A DNA stretch of 64,000 nt, from contig NZ_CAJATU010000123.1 of assembly GCF_903944925.1 (NCBI RefSeq), forward strand, positions 62,001 to 126,000. Direction: 5' to 3'. Made by a program: the position numbers and the translations under genes. The stretch's first letter is position 1; the number at the start of each line of letters is the position of its first letter. This document shows positions 52,912 through 64,000 of the stretch, piece by piece. The stretch is from an uncultured Rhodopila sp. Lineage in GTDB: Bacteria; Pseudomonadota; Alphaproteobacteria; Acetobacterales; Acetobacteraceae. The notes below the pieces were generated by a model. The model ran no database searches, was not told the DNA's origin, and worked only from the letters and a program-made list of their open reading frames with translations.

Positions 52912-54348
52912 ATGGACCCGACCTTCCTGCCCGCGACCGCTCTTGCCAAACTGGTTCGGACCGGAAAACTCGGCGCGCTGGAACTGCTGGACCATTTCAT
53001 CGCCCGTACCGAACAACTTGACCCCCGCATCAACGCCATCGTCGTGCGCGACTTCGACCGCGCCCGCGCCCGGGCGCGGGAATTGGATTCCCGACCGGAC
53101 AAATCCGCCCCGCTGTTCGGTGTGCCAACGACGGTAAAGGAGAGCTTCGACGTCGCCGGACTTCCCACCACCCGCGGCCACGCGGACCTTGCGTCCCGGC
53201 CCATCGGCGTAACGACGATCACCGTGCGGCGGCTGGAGGCGGCGGGCGCGGTGGTGTTCGGCAAGACCAATGTCCCGGTCGATCTGGCCGACTGGCAGAG
53301 CTACAATCCGGTGTACGGAACGACGTCCAACCCATGGAACACCGGCCATACCCCGGGCGGGTCCTCCGGCGGGTCCGCCGCCGCCCTCGCCGCCGGCCTG
53401 ACCGGCCTGGAGATCGGCTCCGACATCGGCGGTTCCATCCGCGTGCCGGCGCATTTCTGCGGCGTCTACGGGCACAAGCCGACCTTCGGGCTGGTGCCGA
53501 ATTATGGCGATCCGGCGTTGAGTGCCGCTGCGGGCACGGATATCGCCGTTGCCGGGCCTCTGGCGCGGTCCGCCTCCGATCTGGCGGTGGCGCTGGACGT
53601 GCTGGCCGGGCCTGATCCCGATGAATCCGGGCTGACGCTGACCCTGCCGGCGCCTCGGTTCGGCAGCCTGAAGGAGTTGCGCGTGGCGGTCTGGGCGGAG
53701 CAGCCGGGCCAGACGACGGACTCCGAAACCTTCGCCGCGATCCTCGCCCTGGCCGACGGGCTGGAACGCGAGGGCGCCACGGTCAGCCGCACCGCGCGTC
53801 CCCCGTTCGATGCGGCCGAGGCGTTTCACCTTTACCTCCGCCTGCTGGACACCGCCTGGAGCAGCCGCGTGCCGGACGCGGTGGTGGAGGCCCGGCGCCA
53901 GCGTCTGGCCGCGCTGCCGGAGGCGGCCAACAGCGCCGACGACGTCATGCTGCGCACAGTGGGGATGGAGCACCGCGCGTGGCTCGGCCTGAACGAACAG
54001 CGCTTCAAGTGGCGCCGCGCGTGGTCGGCGTTCTTCCAGCAGTGGGATGTGCTGCTGTGCCCGGCCTTCGGCACGGCGGCGTTGCCGCACCGCCAGGACG
54101 GCGAACCGTGGCAGCGGCGGATCAGCGTCGTGGGACGGGAGATCGCCTATAATGATCTGCTGTTCTGGCCGGGGCTGACGGGCGGTTTCCATTTGCCGGG
54201 GACAGTGGCGCCGCTGGGGTTCACCAGGGCCGGGCTGCCGCTCGGCGTGCAGATCGCCGGGCCGATCTACGGGGACCGCATCACGATCGCCGCGGCGGCG
54301 CTGTGTGAGAAGGCCTGGCTGGGGTTCAAGCCGCCGGCCGGGTGGTAG
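52912..54348 (+). CDS. Amidase signature family enzyme
   Basis: The protein has 478 residues. The Ser-cisSer-Lys triad is visible: Lys in 'PTTVKESFDVAG', cis-Ser in 'GGSSGGSAAALAAGL', and nucleophilic Ser in 'GSDIGGSIRVPAHFCG'. It hydrolyses an amide bond, substrate unknown. It is not part of a gatCAB set, and both its lone context and its sequence argue against GatA. The gene starts 50 bp after the REP-like element and ends 300 bp before the PKS gene. Confidence 0.93.
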   Translation: MDPTFLPATALAKLVRTGKLGALELLDHFIARTEQLDPRINAIVVRDFDRARARARELDSRPDKSAPLFGVPTTVKESFDVAGLPTTRGHADLASRPIGVTTITVRRLEAAGAVVFGKTNVPVDLADWQSYNPVYGTTSNPWNTGHTPGGSSGGSAAALAAGLTGLEIGSDIGGSIRVPAHFCGVYGHKPTFGLVPNYGDPALSAAAGTDIAVAGPLARSASDLAVALDVLAGPDPDESGLTLTLPAPRFGSLKELRVAVWAEQPGQTTDSETFAAILALADGLEREGATVSRTARPPFDAAEAFHLYLRLLDTAWSSRVPDAVVEARRQRLAALPEAANSADDVMLRTVGMEHRAWLGLNEQRFKWRRAWSAFFQQWDVLLCPAFGTAALPHRQDGEPWQRRISVVGREIAYNDLLFWPGLTGGFHLPGTVAPLGFTRAGLPLGVQIAGPIYGDRITIAAAALCEKAWLGFKPPAGW

Positions 54349-54648
54349 GGGCGGAAATCAACGTCCCGTTGCCGGCTCCGCGGCGGGGTCCGGATTCGCC
54401 GGAATAGCGGCCCCTGGGGTAGTTCCGGGCACAGTTCCGCTGGCGGCGGCTTCGGCCGTGGGCACGCACGGCCGGCGGCGACCGGCGGATGACGGCCTCC
54501 TTCAAAGCCGCCCGCCCGCCCGCTTGGCGGAAATAATTCGAGTTTGTGAACTACGTCACATTCGGATCGAAACCGGCTTGGTAGGCACCCTTTCAGCGAG
54601 GGCCCGGTGGCGGCCCTGCGAACGAAATCAGTTGGCAGGAGTTCCGAA
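54349..54648 (+). promoter_or_regulatory. Upstream region of the PKS cluster
   Basis: This gene-free spacer contains the CRP-like palindrome (54545-54560) in its less GC-rich part. A GGCAGGAG ribosome-binding site (54634-54641) lies just before ATG 54649 and supports that start over the in-frame GTG at 54607. No confident -35/-10 pair was assigned. Confidence 0.6.
54545..54560 (+). promoter_or_regulatory. CRP-like palindrome upstream of the PKS gene
   Basis: TGTGA-ACTACG-TCACA is a perfect match to the CRP/FNR-superfamily consensus TGTGA-N6-TCACA. It ends 88 bp before ATG 54649. A related site precedes the carrier-cyclase gene at 62477. Confidence 0.6.
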
Positions 54649-57600
54649 ATGACAGCGTCAAACCAAGAGCCGATCGCGATCCTCGGGGCCGGATGCCGGT
54701 TTCCGGGCGGCATTTCCAATCTGGAGGCTTTTTGGAACGCCCTGGTGGCCCGGATCGATGCCATCACCGAGGTTCCGGCCGACCGGTGGAACATGGCGCG
54801 ATTTCGTTCCGGCTCGAAGGCCGCGCGCGGCAAAATGTATATCGCCAAAGGCGGCTTTCTCGACCAGCCACTTGATGAAATGGATGCAGGCTTCTTCGGC
54901 ATTTCTCCGAGAGAGGCGGAAGTCCTGGATCCGCAGCAGCGGCTGCTGCTCGAAGTCGCCTGGGAAGCCATGGAAAACGCCGGTCTCGATGTCCACGCGC
55001 TCGCGGGCAGCCGCACCGGCGTTTTCATTGGCGGCTTCACGCTCGACCATATGTTGAGCCAGATGGGTGCCGCCAGCCGCGAACACATCGGCCAGCATAC
55101 AGCCGTCGGCTCGACCATGACGATGCTGTCGAATCGGCTGTCGCACGCTTTCGACTTCCGCGGGCCCAGTATTACTATGGACACGGCGTGCTCGTCGTCG
55201 CTGGTCGCGCTGCATCAGGCCTGCCAGGCGCTTTGGACCGGTCAGTGCACCGCCGCACTGGCCGGCGGCGTCAACGTCATGCTGCGCCCGGAAATGCCCA
55301 TCGCGATGTGCAAGGGGGGATTTCTCGCCGCGGACAGCCATTGCAAGAGTTTCGATGCACGTGCGGATGGATACGCCCGTGGCGAGGGCGCGGGCATTAT
55401 TGTCCTGAAACGACTCAGCGACGCGATCCGCGATGAGGATCCGGTCCTGGCGGTTATTCACGCCACCGGGGTGAATCAGGACGGGCGCACCAACGGTATC
55501 ACGGTGCCCAACGGCGCCTCCCAGGAAGCGCTGATGCGCGAAGTGTGCGCGGCCGCAGGAATGCAACCGCGGCAGATCGCCTATGTCGAGGCCCACGGCA
55601 CCGGCACGCCCGTCGGCGACCCCATCGAGGCCGCGGCCATCGGCGCCGTCTATGGCGCCGGCCGTGTGGCCGGCGACACGCCCTGCGTCATCGGCTCGGT
55701 CAAGTCCAATATCGGCCATCTCGAGGCCGCCTCGGGCATGGCCGGGATCATGAAATCCATCCTCTGCCTGATCCACAACGCGATCCCGCCGCTCGGCACC
55801 CTGGAGACCCCGAATCCCGCGATACCGTTCGATCGGCTTGGGCTGCGCCTGGCGGACCGGATGCTGCCGCTGGGTGACGCCGGCAAGGCAGCGGTCATCG
55901 GTGTCAACTCGTTCGGTTACGGCGGCACCAACGCCCATATCCTGCTGGGCTCCGCTCTGAAGCAAAACACGGATGAGCAGGAGCGCCCGGCCGCGGCGGA
56001 CCCGACCGAGGTTTCGCTGCCGATGCTGCCGATGTCAGCCGAGAGCGATGCCGGCCTGCGCGCCGTGGCCCGGAGCTTCGCCGATATGCTGGCGGACCCG
56101 ACCTGCCCCGGCCTGGAGAATGTGATCTACAGCGCCGGCGCCCGCCGGACCCATCTTACACACCGCCTGGCAGTGACCGGGCGTGACCGGCAGTCGATCC
56201 TCGGCAAGCTCCGCATGTTCCTGGAGGGCAGCCAAAGCGGCGTCCAGGGTGGCGAGGTCCATCTCGGCAAAGCCCCGGCGCATCGCGGGCGCGGCACGGT
56301 GTTCGTCTATACCGGAATGGGCCCGCAATGGTGGGCCATGGGCCAGACGTTGTACCGGACGGAGCCGGTCTACCAGCAGGCGGCCGAGGAAATCGATCGG
56401 GTGTTCCAGTCCGTCTCGGGCTTCTCTATTCTCGCTGAAATGCTGCGGCCCGAGACGGAGTCGCGCATCACCGAAACCCGTTTCGCGCAGCCGGCGAATT
56501 TCCTGTTGCAGGTGGCCCTGACACGGCTGCTGGCCTCGGTCGGAATCGTTCCGGATGCCATCGTCGGCCACTCGGTCGGGGAAGTGTCCTCGGCTTATGC
56601 CGCCGGTGTCCTGACACTGCGGGAAGCGGCCCTGGTTTCCTTCCACCGCAGCCGCCTGCAGGCCACCACCGCCGGCACCGGCAAGATGCTTGCGGTCGGG
56701 CTGTCCGATGACATCGTCGTGCCGCTGCTCGACGGCTACGCCGGCCGGGTCTCCATCGCCGCCATCAACAGCCCGTCCAGCGTGACCCTGGCAGGCGACG
56801 CCGAGTGCCTCGCCGAACTCGCGGAGGTCTTTACCGGCGAAGGCGTGTTCAACCGGATGCTGGATGTCGAGGTGCCCTATCACAGCCCGATGATGGAGCC
56901 GCTGCAGGACGAACTGCTCGCCTGCCTCGAGAAGCTGCGCCCGCTGTCGCCTGTACTTCCGCTGTATTCAACGGTAACCGGCGAACGGGTAACCGGCATC
57001 GCCTATGACGCGCCGTATTGGTATGCGAATGTCCGCCAGCCGGTGTATTTCGCGCACGCCGTGCGGGCCCTGATCGCCGACGGGTTCAATACCTTCCTGG
57101 AGGTCGGCCCGCACCCGGTGCTGTCCGCCTCTCTGCGCGAATTGTTCAGCGAAGCCCGGATCGAAGGGCAGGCGATCGAGACGCTGCGCCGGCTGAAGCC
57201 CGAGGGGCAAAACGCCGCCGCCGCCAGTGTCGCGCTGTTCATGGCCGGGGCGAAGATCGACTGGCGCGCCAGATGCGCAGGCGGAGCCTTCGTTCCGCTC
57301 CCCAATTACCCCTGGCAGCGGGAGAAACTCTGGACCGAGGCTCGCGATGCTCGCGAGGATCGTCTCGGCGGACTCGGCGACACCTTGCTGGGCAACCGGC
57401 TCGGGACATCGCTGCCGGCATGGCGGACGGAGTTCACCGAAAACAACACGCCCTGGCTGCCGGATCACCGGATCGACGATCTGGTGGTGGTTCCCGCAGC
57501 CGCCTATCTGGAAACCTTCCTGCGCCTGCATGAGGAAACCGTCGGCGGCAGCGGGGCGGTGTTGCGCCGGATCAGTTTCAGCCAGGCCCTGATCGCCCAG

Positions 57601-60600
57601 GGAGCCAGCCCGACCATTATGCTTTCCGAATATGACCCGGAAGGCCGATCGGCTCGGCTGGTCAGTCAGAACGCCGCCGACCACACGGCGTGGGCGGTCC
57701 ACGCGCAGGCGTTTTTCTACAGCAACGACGGCGCCGCGCCGGAACGGCTTGATCTCCCGGGACTTCGGGCGGCGCTGCCGATCGGCGTCAGGCCGGACGA
57801 TCTTTACGCCGACCTGGCGGCGCGCGGCCTGAACTATGGCCCGCGCTTCCAGACGATCACCGCGCTGCAGCGCGGCGATGGACAGGTGCTGGCGCGGATC
57901 GAGGCCACGGCGGCTTTCGCGGACGAACCGCTGCAATACCGGATGCATCCGACGCTGCTGGACGGCTGCTTCCAGGCGCTGATCGCCGCCATCGGCGGCG
58001 GCGATGCGCAACCCGGGTTCGTGCCCGTCGGCATTCAGGAACTCCGTCTGAACCGGGAATTCCCCGCCACGGTCTGGTGCCACGGCTGGGTGACCGAGTC
58101 GTCGGCGCGTTTCGTGCGCTGCGACTTCACCGTCTGCGACGAGCTGGGCATGGTGGTCGCGGAGATCGTCGGCCTGTCCTGCCAGGCCATCGCGGGCAGC
58201 GGGTTCGGCGCGGCGGACGAGCATCTCGCCAGCCGGGGCTATGAATACCAATGGGTGGAGCAGGCCGCCACGGGCCACGCCTCTCGCACCGGCCGCTGGC
58301 TGCTCATCGGCGACCAGGACGACATAGCGGACGAGCTGCCACTGGCGCTGCGGCTGCTGGGCGTGTCCGATGTCCTGAGCGTCCCGGCCGGAACCCATCT
58401 GGGCGAGCTCGATGGCCGGGTCATTCTGACTCCGCCGGACATGGGCTTCACCCCGGTTCCCCGGATACTCGACGGCATCGACGGCATCGCTGTCATACCC
58501 GGCGGGTCCGCGGCGCAAGACCCGACGGGGATCAACGCCGGCCTGGACGTGCTCGCGGTGCTGCAAAGCCTGGCACGGATCAAGGCGGCCTCGCCCCGTG
58601 TGTACATTGTGACCCGGGGCGCCCACCAGGCAACGCCGCAGGATCGGAGCGTCGATCCCGCCGCCGCCACGCTGATTGGTCTGACCCGGGTCGCCTTCAA
58701 TGAGCTTGGCGATCTGCGTTGCTCCAGCATCGACCTCGGCTTGGTCAGCCATGATGGCGAGGCCGCCATGCTGGCCGCCGAACTGACCGCCGACACGATC
58801 GAGGACGAGGTGGCGTTGCGCGAGCAAGGCCGGTTCGTCAGCCACCTCGGGCGCAGCGACCTGCTGGCCGCGCCGTCGATTGCCGACATCGGCATGGGCG
58901 GCGAAGCGGGGTTCGTGCTGGCATCGCCGGCCAAGCGTGGCGACACGCCGGTGTTCGACCAGTTGGTGCCGCCCACTCCCTGGCGGGGTGAAATCCTGGT
59001 CCGCGTCCACGCTGCGGCGGGCGCGCCCCGTGCACGAGCCGGTGGCGCGGACACGGACGCTTGGTCGCCGGCAACCTTGCTGCTGGGCGAAGTCGCGGCG
59101 TCCGGACCCGACACGCCGCTCCCGGCCGGTTCGTTCGTGGCGGGCTACGCGGCGGGTCCCCTGGCCAGCCATGCGATCATGACCGTCGAAGCGGCGGTCC
59201 CGGTGGTGCTGCCGGCCGGCATGACGGCCGCAACCGCCGCGGCGACGCTCGACCAGCGGGCACGGGCCAATCTGGCGGTGGAAACCGCGGGCATCGGGCC
59301 CCACTCGACGGTCCTCGTATACGCGGACCACGCCGGAATCGCGGTCAGCCTGGCGGCCATGGCGCGCGGCGCCACGGTCATTGCAATGAACGCACCGGGC
59401 CTGGGCACTGAGGCTTCCCGTTTCGGCGCCAGGGCGGTGGTTTCCACTACGGCCGAAATGACCGCGGCGGTGCGCCGGCTCACCGGCGGTGCCGGCGTGA
59501 CCATGCTTGCCGCACCGCTGGCGTCATGGGCGCTGACGCATGACTTCGGCACGCTCGCCGAAGGCGGCTTCCTGCTCGACACCGCGTCGGAACCGTCAAC
59601 GCCTCGTTTGCCGGACGGACATCAAGTCGGCGCCGTCATGAACATGGCCAGCGCGGTCAGAGCAGCGCATGCGCGCGGCGCGCTGCTGCGGCATCTGGCG
59701 GCAGCGGCGACGCAACTGGCGGCGGAGCCGATACCGGCGACTCCGCAGCCGGCGGTGCTGGCGGGAAAGCTCGGTTCGGCCACCTCCGATGCCGCGATCA
59801 TCCTGCATGACCCGGAAGCGGCAGTCACGGTCCGGCGGCTGGAAATTCTGCCCGTGAACGGCGAGGGCACCTATCTGATCACCGGCGGCTTCGGCGGCTT
59901 CGGCACCGAGGTTGCCCGTTGGCTGGTTCGTAACGGGGCGCGCCATGTCGCCCTGCTCGGACGGCGCGGCGCGGCCGGCGCGGACTCGATGGCGCTGGTG
60001 CGGGAGCTCGAGGACTCGGGCGCCCGGATCGCAGCGCTCGCCTGCGACATCGGCGACGCCGCGGACCTGCGGGCGGCCCTGGCCGGGCTCGCGGAGACCA
60101 TGCCGCCCTTGCGTGGCGTGATCCATTCCGCTGCCGTGCTTGTGGATGCCCCGCTCGTGGACCTGACGCAGAGGGACTTCCGCCGCGTCATGACCGCAAA
60201 AGCCCTCGGCGCCTGGAACCTGCATACTGGAACCTCCGGGCTGGAGCTGGACTTCTTTGTTCTGTTCTCCTCGATTTCCTGCCTTGTGGGGAACAGCGGC
60301 CAGACCAACTACGCCGCGGCCAATAGCTACCTCGACGCCCTGGCCGCGCATCGCCGATCGCTGGGTCTGCCGGGGACCAGTCTCAACTGGGGCGCCATCG
60401 CCGATGTCGGGCTGGTCAGCCGCAGCGCGATCTTGCAGAAGCACCTGGAATACACCGGGTTGATCGGGATGCCGGTCGCCGATGCCCTGACCGCTTTGGC
60501 CCGGGTCATGGCGAAGGACCTGACGCAGTTCTGCTACGCCGAAGCGGACTGGCAGCAATGGGCCCGGCATGAGCCGACAGGCGGCAAGTCGCCGCGCTTC

Positions 60601-60954
60601 GCCGAACTCGTCGGTGCCGCGAACGAAGGCGCCGATGGTTCTGCCGCGGAACGCTTCCGCCGCCAGATGGCGGAGCTGGCCCCGGCCGACAGGACTGCCG
60701 TCCTGGCCTATACCTTCGCTGAAATCTTCAGTCCTGAACTACGTATCCCGGCCGAGGGGATCGACATCAACCGTCCGTTCAACCGGCTTGGCATCGACTC
60801 GCTGATGGCCGTCGGACTGCAACTGAGCGTCGAGGCGGCGGTTGGCGTCAGGGTATCGGCGTTCGAACTCGTCGGCGATGGCTCGCTGCACGAACTGGCG
60901 CAGAAATGCCTGGCCCAGATGGACCTGCCGGCCGTCGAAATGAAGGCGGCCTGA
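54649..60954 (+). CDS. Modular type I polyketide synthase (KS-AT-DH-ER(degenerate)-KR-ACP)
   Basis: The protein has 2101 residues. KS ~8-435: Cys181 in 'DTACSSSL', His316 in 'EAHGTGTP', His357 in 'KSNIGHLEA'. AT ~555-870: Ser642 in 'GHSVGE' and His745 in 'VPYHSPMM'; the VPYH motif is neither classic malonyl HAFH nor methylmalonyl YASH. DH ~905-1190: His940 in 'LPDHRIDD' and Asp1105 in 'LLDGCFQAL'. A further region (~1420-1720) resembles an enoyl reductase but lacks the GGVG nucleotide loop. KR ~1740-1920: 'TGGFGGFG' and Tyr1888 in 'QTNYAAANSYLD'; 'VLVDAP' at the LDD position hints at B-type. ACP ~2010-2095: Ser2051 in 'GIDSL'. There is no thioesterase or reductase; release is presumably done by the alpha-oxoamine synthase encoded 41 bp downstream. 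The product is unknown. Confidence 0.95.
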   Translation: MTASNQEPIAILGAGCRFPGGISNLEAFWNALVARIDAITEVPADRWNMARFRSGSKAARGKMYIAKGGFLDQPLDEMDAGFFGISPREAEVLDPQQRLLLEVAWEAMENAGLDVHALAGSRTGVFIGGFTLDHMLSQMGAASREHIGQHTAVGSTMTMLSNRLSHAFDFRGPSITMDTACSSSLVALHQACQALWTGQCTAALAGGVNVMLRPEMPIAMCKGGFLAADSHCKSFDARADGYARGEGAGIIVLKRLSDAIRDEDPVLAVIHATGVNQDGRTNGITVPNGASQEALMREVCAAAGMQPRQIAYVEAHGTGTPVGDPIEAAAIGAVYGAGRVAGDTPCVIGSVKSNIGHLEAASGMAGIMKSILCLIHNAIPPLGTLETPNPAIPFDRLGLRLADRMLPLGDAGKAAVIGVNSFGYGGTNAHILLGSALKQNTDEQERPAAADPTEVSLPMLPMSAESDAGLRAVARSFADMLADPTCPGLENVIYSAGARRTHLTHRLAVTGRDRQSILGKLRMFLEGSQSGVQGGEVHLGKAPAHRGRGTVFVYTGMGPQWWAMGQTLYRTEPVYQQAAEEIDRVFQSVSGFSILAEMLRPETESRITETRFAQPANFLLQVALTRLLASVGIVPDAIVGHSVGEVSSAYAAGVLTLREAALVSFHRSRLQATTAGTGKMLAVGLSDDIVVPLLDGYAGRVSIAAINSPSSVTLAGDAECLAELAEVFTGEGVFNRMLDVEVPYHSPMMEPLQDELLACLEKLRPLSPVLPLYSTVTGERVTGIAYDAPYWYANVRQPVYFAHAVRALIADGFNTFLEVGPHPVLSASLRELFSEARIEGQAIETLRRLKPEGQNAAAASVALFMAGAKIDWRARCAGGAFVPLPNYPWQREKLWTEARDAREDRLGGLGDTLLGNRLGTSLPAWRTEFTENNTPWLPDHRIDDLVVVPAAAYLETFLRLHEETVGGSGAVLRRISFSQALIAQGASPTIMLSEYDPEGRSARLVSQNAADHTAWAVHAQAFFYSNDGAAPERLDLPGLRAALPIGVRPDDLYADLAARGLNYGPRFQTITALQRGDGQVLARIEATAAFADEPLQYRMHPTLLDGCFQALIAAIGGGDAQPGFVPVGIQELRLNREFPATVWCHGWVTESSARFVRCDFTVCDELGMVVAEIVGLSCQAIAGSGFGAADEHLASRGYEYQWVEQAATGHASRTGRWLLIGDQDDIADELPLALRLLGVSDVLSVPAGTHLGELDGRVILTPPDMGFTPVPRILDGIDGIAVIPGGSAAQDPTGINAGLDVLAVLQSLARIKAASPRVYIVTRGAHQATPQDRSVDPAAATLIGLTRVAFNELGDLRCSSIDLGLVSHDGEAAMLAAELTADTIEDEVALREQGRFVSHLGRSDLLAAPSIADIGMGGEAGFVLASPAKRGDTPVFDQLVPPTPWRGEILVRVHAAAGAPRARAGGADTDAWSPATLLLGEVAASGPDTPLPAGSFVAGYAAGPLASHAIMTVEAAVPVVLPAGMTAATAAATLDQRARANLAVETAGIGPHSTVLVYADHAGIAVSLAAMARGATVIAMNAPGLGTEASRFGARAVVSTTAEMTAAVRRLTGGAGVTMLAAPLASWALTHDFGTLAEGGFLLDTASEPSTPRLPDGHQVGAVMNMASAVRAAHARGALLRHLAAAATQLAAEPIPATPQPAVLAGKLGSATSDAAIILHDPEAAVTVRRLEILPVNGEGTYLITGGFGGFGTEVARWLVRNGARHVALLGRRGAAGADSMALVRELEDSGARIAALACDIGDAADLRAALAGLAETMPPLRGVIHSAAVLVDAPLVDLTQRDFRRVMTAKALGAWNLHTGTSGLELDFFVLFSSISCLVGNSGQTNYAAANSYLDALAAHRRSLGLPGTSLNWGAIADVGLVSRSAILQKHLEYTGLIGMPVADALTALARVMAKDLTQFCYAEADWQQWARHEPTGGKSPRFAELVGAANEGADGSAAERFRRQMAELAPADRTAVLAYTFAEIFSPELRIPAEGIDINRPFNRLGIDSLMAVGLQLSVEAAVGVRVSAFELVGDGSLHELAQKCLAQMDLPAVEMKAA

Positions 60955-60995
60955 CAATCTTCCACGCGACAACCCGATTAAACATGGAGACAACG

Positions 60996-62414
60996 ATGTC
61001 CGCTTCCCGCGCGCTCTCGGATACCACTGTTGACGCAAAACGTTTGCTTGCCAAGGGACTGGCCGCCCGGTTGCGCCCCAACGGCACCACTGCGGCCCCC
61101 GGTTCCGCCCCGGCCATGGCCACCCCGAACCGCACCGCATCGATAGCGGATCTGCCGGACGAGGTTTGGGACGTCCGCCAGTTCCCGGAACGCAAGGTCA
61201 TGGAGGACATGGGGCGCTACTTCGAGGCCCATGGCGTCAAGAACCACTATTTCTGCCGCCACACCGACGTCAGCCGCGAAGTCATGACGGTGGAAGGCAA
61301 CGAATGCCTCAATTACTCCGGCTATAACTATCTCGGTATCGGCGGCGACCCGCGAATCGCCAACGCGGTGAAATCGGCGGTGGATCAGTATGGCGCGTCC
61401 GCCTCAGCGAGCCGCATCGTCGCCGGCAATACCGATTTGCACGAGACGCTGGAAGCCGAAATGGCTGAGTTCCTGGGCGCCGAGGCCTGTGTCGTTTCCG
61501 TCGGCGGCTACCAGACCAACGTGACGACGATCGGATACCTGTGCGACCGGAGCGACCTGATCCTGCACGACGAGCTGGTGCATAACAGCATCATGACCGG
61601 CTGCGTTCTGTCGGGGGCGCGGCGGGTGCCTTTCCCGCACAACGATTACGCCGCGCTCGAGAGCCTGTTGCGGGAAAACCGCATGAACCACCGGCGCGTC
61701 CTGATCATCACCGAGGGCGTCTACAGCATGGACGGCGACATTCCCGACATCGCCCGGCTGGTGCAGTTGAAAAAAGAGTACAAGGCGCTGCTGATGGTCG
61801 ATGAGGCGCATTCGCTCGGTGTCATCGGTGCCACCGGCCGGGGGGTTGTCGAGCATTTCAATCTGCCGCCCGGCGATGTCGACATCCTCATGGGCACGCT
61901 CAGCAAGACCTTCGCCAGTTGCGGCGGCTTCATCGCCGGGCGGCGGGAACTGATCGATATCCTGAAGTATTTCGCGCCGGGCCTGGTGCTGTACAGCGCG
62001 GGCATATCGCCGGTAAGCACCGCCGCCGCGCTCGCCGCGCTGCGGGTGCTGCGGCAGGAACCCGAGCGGGCGGAACGGCTGCGTGAAAACGCTCGGTTTT
62101 TCATCGAGCGGGCGCGCGCCGCCGGGCTGGACACCGGCCTTTCCGACGGCTCCGCGGTCGTTCCGGTCGTGCTGCATGACGACGACTTGGCCTTGCGGGT
62201 GGTCGACCAGTTGATGGAACACGACGCGATCTGCGTGCACGCGATGCTTTATCCGTCGGTGCCCAAGGGCGCTGCCCGGCTGCGGTTTTTCCTCAGCTCG
62301 GCGCACAGCCGGGAGCAGCTCGCCTACACCGTTGATCGTCTTGCCGCGCGGGTCGCCGGACGCGAGGTCCAAACCTTGGTCCCGGCGTCGCGTCTGCCGC
62401 GCGTCGGCGGCTGA
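60996..62414 (+). CDS. PLP-dependent alpha-oxoamine synthase (KBL/BioF/SPT-like)
   Basis: The protein has 472 residues from ATG 60996, chosen because GGAGA lies 5 nt upstream; ATG 60984 is a possible alternative. The fold type I PLP features are the lysine in 'GTLSKTFASCGG' (Lys304), 'MVDEAHSLGVIG', 'LILHDELVHNSI' and 'YSGYNYLGIGGDPR'. The family decarboxylates an amino acid and condenses it with an acyl-CoA or acyl-ACP, giving an alpha-aminoketone (as in BioF, serine palmitoyltransferase and PigH). An N-terminal extension of about 50 residues precedes the catalytic domain. Lying directly after a PKS that lacks a release domain, it most likely offloads the polyketide from the ACP. The amino-acid partner is unknown. 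Confidence 0.93.
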   Translation: MSASRALSDTTVDAKRLLAKGLAARLRPNGTTAAPGSAPAMATPNRTASIADLPDEVWDVRQFPERKVMEDMGRYFEAHGVKNHYFCRHTDVSREVMTVEGNECLNYSGYNYLGIGGDPRIANAVKSAVDQYGASASASRIVAGNTDLHETLEAEMAEFLGAEACVVSVGGYQTNVTTIGYLCDRSDLILHDELVHNSIMTGCVLSGARRVPFPHNDYAALESLLRENRMNHRRVLIITEGVYSMDGDIPDIARLVQLKKEYKALLMVDEAHSLGVIGATGRGVVEHFNLPPGDVDILMGTLSKTFASCGGFIAGRRELIDILKYFAPGLVLYSAGISPVSTAAALAALRVLRQEPERAERLRENARFFIERARAAGLDTGLSDGSAVVPVVLHDDDLALRVVDQLMEHDAICVHAMLYPSVPKGAARLRFFLSSAHSREQLAYTVDRLAARVAGREVQTLVPASRLPRVGG

Positions 62415-62445
62415 TCGTCCGGCGAAGACGGGACAGCGAAACGGG

Positions 62446-62463
62446 CCCGGGATTTATTCCGGG
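62446..62463 (+). terminator. Hairpin after the alpha-oxoamine synthase gene
   Basis: CCCGG..CCGGG, extendable by G-T and A-T pairs, has a TTTA loop and lies about 30 bp after the stop. There is no U-tract. The loop resembles the REP-like elements (GGATTTATTCC), so it may be a REP remnant rather than a terminator. Confidence 0.35.
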
Positions 62464-62476
62464 TTTCCGCCAAAGG

Positions 62477-62492
62477 TGTGAAGTACCCCACA
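62477..62492 (+). promoter_or_regulatory. CRP-like palindrome upstream of the carrier-cyclase gene
   Basis: TGTGA-AGTACC-CCACA differs from the TGTGA-N6-TCACA consensus at one position. It shares about 19 of 25 aligned bases with the site at 54545. It ends 112 bp before ATG 62605, suggesting a second promoter inside the cluster under the same regulator. Confidence 0.5.
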
Positions 62493-62604
62493 TCCGGCAC
62501 GCGGAAGATCACGCAAAAAGGGTCCGACGCCAAGACTATTCCATCCTCGGACGGGCGGTTCATCCGGCACCGGCGTTCAAAGATCGATCAAGGAGGGCAA
62601 CACG

Positions 62605-63324
62605 ATGATCATGGAAAAGCTCGACTACCTGTTGCGCGCGCTGGATGTCGAAGGCACCTCGCCCAACTTGCTGCTGGAAGCCGATCTCGGCCTGGATTTT
62701 CATGAGCGCCAGTGCCTGCGCGAGGATCTGGAAGACGATCTGCAGGTCGTAATCGCCGATGATGATCTGAAGAACGACATGACCGTACTGGAGTTTGCCG
62801 GGCTGTTGTCCCGCAAATCGATGACCCTTCCCGGAATCGATAATTTCGGCGGCAAGCTGGTGGAGGACGCCGTCATCTTCGCGGTGCCGGAGATCGTCAA
62901 CAGCATCCTTCTGGATATCGACGCCTGGCCGAAACTGATGCCGCATGTGCGCAATGTCAGGACAACCTACGATGACGGCACATACCAGGAGTTCACGATG
63001 GACGCCGGCGGTGCCGGGGGTAATTTTGTGCCAGTGCGATCGGTGCGCCGGAGCGAGCCCGGGCACATAGCCTATTTCCTGCCCGTGCCGCCGCCTTTCC
63101 TCAAGCATTGCTGTGGCGACTGGTTCATCCGCTCGCTCGGCCGAGGTGCGACGCATCTGACGATCGTCTTGCGTTGGACCTTGACTACGGGCGGGCAGGA
63201 GGCGTTGGACGGTTCCGCACGGGCCGAGGCACTGCTCGGTGAATGGGCCAAGGTTGCGCTCGCTGCGGTGAAGTCGGCGCTGGAAGAGAACGTGCGGTTC
63301 TCCGAAATCGGGCAGGCGGCGTAA
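62605..63324 (+). CDS. Serine-less carrier-protein-like domain fused to a START/SRPBCC cyclase-like domain
   Basis: The protein has 239 residues with a strong AGGAGGG Shine-Dalgarno 7 nt before ATG. Residues ~1-75 follow the acyl carrier protein pattern ('LLLEADLGLDFHERQCLREDLEDDL', 'TVLEFAGLL'). At the DSL site the phosphopantetheine serine is Phe32 (DFH), so the domain cannot be a normal carrier. Residues ~85-235 resemble the START/SRPBCC fold of polyketide aromatases/cyclases and coenzyme Q-binding proteins ('VPEIVNSILLDIDAWPKLMPHVRNVR', 'HLTIVLRWTLTTGG'). The likely role is to bind and cyclise or chaperone the chain from the PKS or oxoamine synthase. This is inference; the fold assignment is moderately secure. 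Confidence 0.75.
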   Translation: MIMEKLDYLLRALDVEGTSPNLLLEADLGLDFHERQCLREDLEDDLQVVIADDDLKNDMTVLEFAGLLSRKSMTLPGIDNFGGKLVEDAVIFAVPEIVNSILLDIDAWPKLMPHVRNVRTTYDDGTYQEFTMDAGGAGGNFVPVRSVRRSEPGHIAYFLPVPPPFLKHCCGDWFIRSLGRGATHLTIVLRWTLTTGGQEALDGSARAEALLGEWAKVALAAVKSALEENVRFSEIGQAA

Positions 63325-63373
63325 CGTTCTTTCGGGGACCGCCCGGACCATCCCCACGCCAGGACCTCATGTC

Positions 63374-63823
63374 ATGATCACCATCGCCGTCGAACGTACC
63401 GCACCTGTCACACCACGATCCTTGATCGACCGGATCTGGTCGGGCGTGGAATGGCGGCTGGCCCGCTCGGGGGTCGAGGCGTTGGCCATCGATTACGACG
63501 ACGGGTTCCATCAATCGGTCCAGGTCTGTGTCGGCTGGCGAACCGGCCACCTGGCCATGTCGGTCATGCGGTATCGCGAAAGCATGTCCCGCATCAGCTA
63601 TTTCTACTCCCGGCCGCCCAACGGCGTGGCGAAACAAACCGGCCTGTGGGAGGCCCGTCCAGCCGGCGGCGGGTGCCGCCTTTTGCTGATGCGAACCATG
63701 GAACTGGTGCGCGGATCGGGGGAAACCGACTCGTTGTTCAGGCAACGGGAGACGGCGCACGGCGAAATGCTGCGCCAGCATTTGGGGCTGACTCTCGACG
63801 TCGTCGCCGAAGGACAGGGCTGA
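63374..63823 (+). CDS. Small SRPBCC-like protein
   Basis: The protein has 149 residues and starts 49 bp after the carrier-cyclase gene. 'LIDRIWSGVEWRLARSG', 'FHQSVQVCVGWRTGHLAMSVMRYRE' and the C-terminal helix 'ETAHGEMLRQHLGLTLDVV' fit a helix-grip (SRPBCC) fold, but similarity is weak and no catalytic residue can be named. Its place directly before the Rossmann gene suggests a second cyclase or ligand-binding partner in the same pathway. Confidence 0.6.
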   Translation: MITIAVERTAPVTPRSLIDRIWSGVEWRLARSGVEALAIDYDDGFHQSVQVCVGWRTGHLAMSVMRYRESMSRISYFYSRPPNGVAKQTGLWEARPAGGGCRLLLMRTMELVRGSGETDSLFRQRETAHGEMLRQHLGLTLDVVAEGQG

Positions 63824-63828
63824 CAGCC

Positions 63829-64000
63829 ATGAGCGGTCTCGCACCAACCTCTCCCGCTGCCCCGGCCGCCGCGCCGCTCGTGCTGATCCTCGGCGCGACC
63901 GGTTCGGCCGGGCATGCGGCCGCCGGCGCGTTCCTCGCCAATGGCTGGCGGGTGCGGGCGATGCACCGCACGCTGGACCAGCCAGCCTGCGGACTGGAAT
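63829..64000 (+). CDS. NAD(P)-dependent epimerase/dehydratase-like protein (3' end outside the window)
   Basis: Only the first 57 residues are visible. After a short Ala/Pro-rich leader comes a Rossmann start 'LVLILGATGSAGHAAAGAFL' with 'GWRVRAMHR', the GxxGxxG-type dinucleotide motif of extended SDR or NmrA-like reductases. It begins five bases after the preceding stop, so it belongs to the same transcript. In bacterial ceramide pathways a similar protein (CerR) reduces the oxoamine synthase product, so a ketoreductase role here is possible but unproven. Confidence 0.75.
   Translation, partial: MSGLAPTSPAAPAAAPLVLILGATGSAGHAAAGAFLANGWRVRAMHRTLDQPACGLE

Follow-up and report, generated by a model that had tools for sequence, protein, structure and literature searches.

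An eight-gene block around a polyketide synthase

The window analysed here is the whole 64,000-nucleotide stretch C123:62001-126000 from the 7.0-Mb, 200-contig genome of an uncultured Rhodopila sp., and its last part holds a gene block in which an iterative type I polyketide synthase (PKS) is followed, 41 bp past its stop codon, by a pyridoxal phosphate (PLP)-dependent alpha-oxoamine synthase (AOS) (Table 1). A five-gene biosynthetic system starting at 54545, consisting of these two enzymes, a carrier-like/START fusion, a second SRPBCC-like protein and an epimerase/reductase, had been predicted from the window. All five genes are present, the last of them, an extended short-chain dehydrogenase/reductase (SDR), running beyond the window, but the first gene starts at 54649 (ATG) or 54607 (GTG) within a conserved block beginning at 54529, and the unit is larger than predicted. 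Extension of the read past 64000, as the original prediction had proposed, added three genes of the same block, for a PEP-CTERM-like protein, a HlyD adaptor and an RND permease. Since all eight genes lie on the plus strand, with intergenic gaps calculated from the coordinates as 41, 190, 49, 5, 8, 31 and -4 bp in order, they are read as one operon. A scan of positions 54300 to 64000 gave no promoter of the sigma-70 type; the region holds 10 terminator-like sites versus 5.2 in shuffles.

Table 1 Features of the block; L010 position + 54000 = window position
Feature	Position	Strand	Size and basis
Iterative type I PKS, KS-AT-DH-(pseudo-ER)-KR-ACP	54649..60954	+	2101 aa from ATG 54649, GTG 54607 a possible start; Pfam and motifs
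PLP-dependent AOS	60996..62414	+	472 aa; Pfam, motifs, tree
Pseudo-ACP domain, fusion residues 1-80	62605..62844	+	Phe at serine position; hhalign
START1, SRPBCC domain fused to pseudo-ACP	62845..63324	+	PF10604, E 9.4e-7; hhalign
Whole pseudo-ACP-START fusion	62605..63324	+	239 aa; Polyketide_cyc2 over residues 86-226
START2, second SRPBCC protein	63374..63823	+	149 aa; profile and structure model
Extended SDR (NAD-dependent epimerase family)	63829..64821 (L010:9829-10821), in window to 64000	+	330 aa; PF01370, E 1e-9
PEP-CTERM-like protein	L010:10830-11408, past window end	+	Presumed from tail motif; no Pfam match
HlyD adaptor	L010:11440-12519, past window end	+	Pfam
RND permease	L010:12516-15611, past window end	+	Pfam
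Block common to window genome and congener G024	54529..69611 (C123:116529-131611), in-window part 54529..64000	+	86% DNA identity

The polyketide synthase has lost its enoylreductase motif

The PKS retains the KS Cys and two His, GHSVGE in the AT domain, the DH His and Asp, the KR motif and the DSL of its acyl carrier protein (ACP) domain. It ends after the ACP, and no thioesterase was found among its 13 Pfam families at E <= 0.001, in agreement with the prediction of a single-module enzyme without one. The GGVG nucleotide motif of the enoylreductase (ER) is lost, and no Pfam match to the ER family was obtained in this PKS. For a comparison of PKSs, 36 loci were tried, of which 31 gave one long frame; L036, L038, L043, L044 and L046 (PKS split in two frames) were left out, and 11 further PKS-match loci from a scan of named genomes lie outside the comparison. 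Seven of the 31 PKSs lack the ER motif (the window, G024, Nitrosomonas, Nitrospira, two cyanobacteria and Neorhodopirellula), and these seven group together as a single clade in a tree of the KS-AT region (SH-aLRT 96, quick method), while GxVG is kept in all 24 others (as GAVG in L039). Given the lost motif, the chain is expected from the sequence to be unsaturated or partly reduced, unless an ER acts from elsewhere in the genome. In the two cyanobacteria and Neorhodopirellula an MDR gene, identified by Pfam in L047 and by BLAST in the other loci, adjoins the AOS and might serve as an ER in trans. No MDR gene is present in the window block.

Four other loci carry the PKS and AOS as one fused protein of about 2530-2580 aa (L082 and L084, Blastopirellula; L102, unclassified; L146, a Planktothrix plasmid).

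The alpha-oxoamine synthase and the SgaAB pathway

The AOS carries the motifs SKT, DEAH and HNS and so fits the fold-type I PLP alpha-oxoamine synthase family, which is marked by the SKT lysine, the DEAH motif and the stacking His. Its scores against the NCBIfam models of BioF, Kbl, ALAS and serine palmitoyltransferase (SPT) all stayed under the respective cut-offs. For the three SPT models the scores were 314.7 of 640, 276.3 of 500 and 210.6 of 670 bits, which leaves SPT activity possible; these cut-offs are strict, as a Pseudomonas plasmid AOS (L147) also falls below them and a Caulobacter NF047603 match lies under its cut-off. The other two AOS-family proteins found in the window genome are 5-aminolevulinate synthases.

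Relatives at E <= 1e-90 were found in 13 of 289 class genomes, including the window genome itself, and at 11 of the 13 loci in the other 12 genomes a PKS match adjoins the AOS. No match to the fusion, START2 or the SDR occurred in these 13 loci at E <= 1e-4. Among the best 80 AOS loci of the named-genome scan (44-52% identity), 30 have a PKS match and none has a fusion, START2 or SDR match at E <= 1e-3, many of these loci ending at contig edges. At some loci without a PKS, the AOS instead forms one protein with an AMP ligase and a carrier domain: L050 and its kin in Planctomycetota encode such proteins, about 1150 aa long (domain scan on L050 alone), and in L091, from a cyanobacterium, the arrangement is split in two genes. 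This fusion is a PKS-free feed to the same AOS family, and the available part of a 2013 paper lists the architecture for Blastopirellula marina (PMC3870968).

An AOS tree was built from 48 rows chosen among 108 distinct cores; an earlier quick tree was made without the 13 class loci. This tree brings together the loci already grouped by the KS-AT tree: the window and G024 enzymes join a cyanobacterial/planctomycete set at 100/99 and, more weakly (96/78), with a wider group including Thiomargarita, Nitrosomonas and Nitrospira. They fall outside a 23-row clade (93/95) that holds L147 and 12 of the 13 class loci. L147, which has a PKS, an AOS and a nearby SDR, serves here as a stand-in for the characterised SgaAB system; it is not PfSgaB itself, as the gene ends differ from the printed primers.

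In Pseudomonas fluorescens MYb115, the PKS SgaA and the AOS SgaB make C24-C28 sphinganines, with SgaB joining L-serine to acyl-CoA, a serine palmitoyltransferase activity, and the accessible portion of that paper also describes SgaC as a classical SDR and reports 6101 homologous clusters (Peters et al. 2025, PMC12134224). The predicted offloading of the PKS chain by the oxoamine synthase is therefore well supported, since the pairing recurs and the Pseudomonas pair, as that text reports, has been assayed. The view that the gene combination was unrecognised no longer holds for the PKS and AOS.

The block could then simply be a member of the SgaAB pathway that makes saturated sphinganines with an ER and a reductase supplied in trans. 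The two systems do share a single-module iterative PKS directly followed by a chain-offloading AOS; the SPT activity of PfSgaB fits, and no better SPT candidate was found in the window genome, where nothing exceeded the NF047599 cut-off or reached E <= 1e-150 for NF047603 (NF047600 was not searched genome-wide). Several differences nevertheless make this account improbable. With GGVG lost, the PKS does not have the self-sufficiency for saturated chains that its own ER gives an SgaAB-type cluster, and it is about 400 aa shorter than the stand-in L147 PKS (2497 aa). The AOS belongs to another clade than L147, and no classical SDR of the SgaC/KDSR type (PF00106) was found in the block at E <= 0.001, the block SDR being PF01370. 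The window block further adds the pseudo-ACP-START fusion, START2, the epimerase and an RND exporter. A reduced sphingoid-like product, one of two outcomes originally suggested, is accordingly weakened by the dead ER.

A carrier-like domain without the serine is fused to a START domain

The fusion protein was predicted as carrier-like plus START; its START part stands, with a Polyketide_cyc2 match, but its carrier-like part lacks the phosphopantetheine serine. Residues 1-80 gave no PP-binding Pfam match and aligned to an ACP profile by hhalign with a probability of 85.5 and a score of 32.9, the best of 50 column shuffles reaching a probability of 25.0 and a score of 22.7. The serine is replaced in all three copies of this domain, by Phe in the window and by Leu in both G024 and contig C130, while it is kept in four comparison ACPs (a Staphylococcus cluster ACP-like protein, an Azospirillum ACP and two SPT-operon ACPs). 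Lacking the serine, the pseudo-ACP cannot carry a phosphopantetheine arm. The searches of an open-access library that concern the fusion showed no ACP-like/START protein of this kind.

START1 aligned at 99.5% hhalign probability to eight SRPBCC domains of polyketide-type clusters, and START1 and START2 share with such domains a sequence profile and the invariant columns W, R, P, G and W. START2 has no Pfam match; its assignment as the second SRPBCC-like protein is borne out by profile and structure model. Its best fold matches, after VIA-align rescoring of a Foldseek list, are aromatase/cyclases, and the list also includes lipid-transfer proteins. The structure prediction for the fusion (mean pLDDT 37) was used for strand order only; the START2 model was usable. 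The SRPBCC fold (in START2) and the sequence profile of type II PKS aromatase/cyclases were found, features common also to non-cyclase SRPBCC proteins. Among the matches listed for START1 on plasmids, 20 relatives include nine annotated as aromatase/cyclase and one as cyclase, and three of the regions were examined; a plasmid search with START2 gave no match. A profile of this SRPBCC subfamily, searched against the loci collected, gave just two matches outside its own members: L017 (E 3.7e-6), which is no PKS-AOS locus, and a gene on a Planktothrix plasmid (E 0.0014).

START2 shares its fold with the type II aromatase/cyclases BexL, StfQ, ZhuI and TcmN; in contrast to their systems, the block has no KS-alpha/KS-beta genes and START1 is joined to an ACP without the serine. 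On a Staphylococcus haemolyticus plasmid (L151, NZ_CP120084.1), a type II PKS-like cluster was seen with two KS genes, an ACP-like protein and three SRPBCC domains.

The KS-AT-DH-KR-ACP logic of the PKS, which is the architecture of 6-methylsalicylate-type enzymes, together with two aromatase/cyclase-like domains, might suggest a partially reducing PKS of that type whose chain is aromatised by the START proteins before the AOS adds an amino acid. Aromatase/cyclases act on poly-beta-ketones, not on reduced chains, and the window PKS groups with PKS-AOS pairs that have no such cyclases, so that we consider this scheme very improbable.

Conservation and distribution of the block

All eight genes recur in the same order in the congener G024, at 79-92% protein identity (79% for the PEP-CTERM-like protein). 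No stops are present and dN/dS is 0.11-0.28, indicating purifying selection on all eight; eight open frames with this identity and dN/dS argue that the block is not a chance assembly. A decayed or silent cluster, as the pseudo-ER, the pseudo-ACP and the patchy presence (two of 33 genus genomes) might suggest, is hardly credible given these values, the intact frames and the identical losses in both genomes.

DNA similarity to G024 is limited to about 15.1 kb at 86%, from window position 54529 to the RND stop codon, and the flanking sequence examined on either side gave no match between the two genomes. The upstream neighbours, assigned by reading alone, are a housekeeping-like ABC transporter, peptidase and amidase. 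The amidase is present in 29 of the 33 genus genomes (own included); in G024 it sits on a different contig. G007, the closest relative by amidase (92%), has after this gene a sequence that the window genome carries 28-33 kb further along, in inverted orientation. Similarity confined to the block, together with these flank differences, indicates that the block behaves as an accessory unit.

The pseudo-ACP-START fusion occurs in two of the 33 genus genomes, the window genome included; of these 33, a set of 23 combines completeness of 90% or more with contamination of 5% or less, and G024, at 7% contamination, falls outside it. Across 398 phylum genomes, a full match was obtained only in the window genome, two others giving short stretches (E 5.4e-4 and 8.5e-4). 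A START2 profile matched in one of 385 class genomes, again its own, with at most 10 candidates scored per genome. No match to the fusion occurred at the 41 other AOS loci that have a PKS match (11 class loci and 30 among the best 80 named-genome loci). Among the genomes searched, PKS, AOS, pseudo-ACP-START, START2 and epimerase occur together only in the window genome and G024, and the comparisons made found no known cluster closely matching the whole gene set. For this full combination, then, the original view of an uncharacterised system is sustained within these searches.

Contig C130 of the window genome (8.8 kb) carries, as orphans, a pseudo-ACP (L015 3794-4030, 47% identity) and a START2 paralogue (L015 4150-4599, 53%). 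A duplicate cluster was considered there and rejected, as no PKS, AOS or START1 is present; the pair may be a remnant, or may belong to an independent system that uses these two proteins.

Reductase and exporter genes

The SDR was compared with CerR-like reductases, an assignment that was rejected: it shares 25% identity (E 9.6e-7) with an SPT-operon epimerase, which is no closer than its similarity to further epimerase-like genes in the genus (best E 1.1e-8, from a different search). The canonical SPT operon (epimerase-ACP-SPT; read in G046, with a similar one assigned by position in G465) likewise brings together an AOS-family enzyme, an ACP-like protein and an extended SDR, but has an SPT and serine-bearing ACPs.

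The nearest relatives of the window block in both the PKS and AOS trees are five ER-less PKS-AOS pairs with the same ER loss (L047, L076 and L056 from cyanobacteria/Neorhodopirellula; L051 and L069 from Nitrosomonas/Nitrospira), for which searches of an open-access library gave no description. Exporter genes were seen near all of the five except L076, namely MMPL and LolA-like genes in Nitrosomonas (Pfam; kin by BLAST or Pfam) and RND genes in Phormidesmis and Neorhodopirellula. Their accessory genes differ from those of the window: Pfam shows MDR, metallo-beta-lactamase and FAD oxidoreductases in L047, the one locus of its set scanned, and MMPL and LolA-like genes in L051, and neither a pseudo-ACP nor an SRPBCC protein of the window kind was found in their loci. 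In L047 (13768-17150) and L076 (14217-19191), two or three related genes stand in a row, FAD oxidoreductase-like at L047 13768-15465, a hint of oxidative tailoring at the cyanobacterial loci.

Proposed pathway

We interpret the block as an eight-gene cassette for an exported amino-polyketide that is released by the AOS and most likely ring-closed by START1 and START2, a reading to which we assign a probability of about 0.48. Its core, an ER-less polyketide released by the AOS and exported, is probable. Judging by motifs, the iterative PKS would extend, beta-reduce and dehydrate the chain, with double bonds kept because of the dead ER, giving an unsaturated or partly reduced acyl-ACP. By analogy with its family and with SgaAB, the AOS would then condense the chain with an amino acid under decarboxylation and so free it as an alpha-aminoketone. 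The pseudo-ACP may be a docking module that presents a cyclase-type pocket to the PKS or AOS, and START1 and START2 would take up the reactive chain or the aminoketone and most likely close it into a ring, the least certain part of the scheme. The epimerase-type SDR would then reduce the product and HlyD/RND export it. Ring closure of an aminoketone had been the other outcome originally suggested; it is favoured by the resemblance of the SRPBCC domains to aromatase/cyclases, stays a prediction, and as a claim about the SRPBCC proteins themselves falls slightly short of even odds.

A precedent for a PLP enzyme joining a PKS chain to an amino acid, with an N-ring then formed, is curvulamine, where CuaB joins the chain of the PKS CuaA to alanine to give a pyrrol-3-one (PMC13113314, PMC7497351); that system is fungal, and the portions of these papers at hand name no SRPBCC protein for it. 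For the Vibrio vitroprocines, the accessible text reports that labelling indicated PLP-dependent polyketide release (PMC4523872).

A possible account, though clearly below an even chance, is that no ring is formed. The product would be a linear unsaturated amino-lipid, a polyenyl 3-keto sphingoid-like base whose ketone the SDR reduces, and the pseudo-ACP-START and START2 would chaperone it to the RND exporter. The lipid-transfer proteins among the START2 fold matches are consistent with this, as is the recurrence of export genes beside ER-less pairs (MMPL/LolA-like, RND) and in the window block (HlyD/RND). A mycobacterial START protein, moreover, binds acyl-AcpM, interacts with FAS-II components and leaves FAS-II with acyl-AcpM, according to the part of that report available (PMC9014085). 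The plasmid relatives of START1 are mostly in polyketide-type settings, however (10 of the 20 among the matches listed carry the aromatase/cyclase or cyclase annotation), and other PKS-AOS-exporter loci do without such START proteins.

Two points limit the case for the ring-closing cassette. The mycobacterial precedent, as we read it, would back a chaperone role as much as ring closure. Co-conservation, which the original prediction had named as a check, was seen for all eight genes but in a single comparison of two genomes of one genus, and G024 is listed at 7% contamination.

Other gene clusters in the genome

An exosortase above the Pfam cut-off is present in both the window genome and G024, the two genomes that have the PEP-CTERM-like gene in the operon. 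About 130 kb downstream on the same contig (C123:254900-293800), seven strong KS matches in long open frames mark a large modular PKS cluster. Past the window on C123, a stretch absent from G007 at this site holds a YcaO-TfuA pair (L011 347-2745) and a choloylglycine-hydrolase-family gene (L011 5840-6964), possibly a second biosynthetic unit.

Implications

What is new here, as far as searched, is the pseudo-ACP-START fusion and the full gene set; the PKS and AOS pairing was already known. PKS-AOS pairs were linked to bacterial sphingolipids only in 2025, and the loss of the ER motif marks a single clade with members in Pseudomonadota, Nitrospirota, Cyanobacteriota and Planctomycetota. Equating PKS plus AOS with sphinganine is therefore probably wrong for that branch. 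A more specific and rather doubtful idea is that the serine-less ACP-START is a decoy-carrier adaptor, docking at the ACP site of the PKS and holding a cyclase pocket over the AOS exit, so that the ER-less polyenyl aminoketone would become an N-heterocycle before RND export. If true, bacteria would have their own counterpart to the PKS-PLP indolizidine/pyrrole route of fungi, one assembled from type II cyclases recruited for it. With a serine-less ACP joined to a cyclase-like domain under purifying selection, it becomes possible to test whether a carrier fold can be used for docking only, and the cassette is compact enough to be expressed whole.

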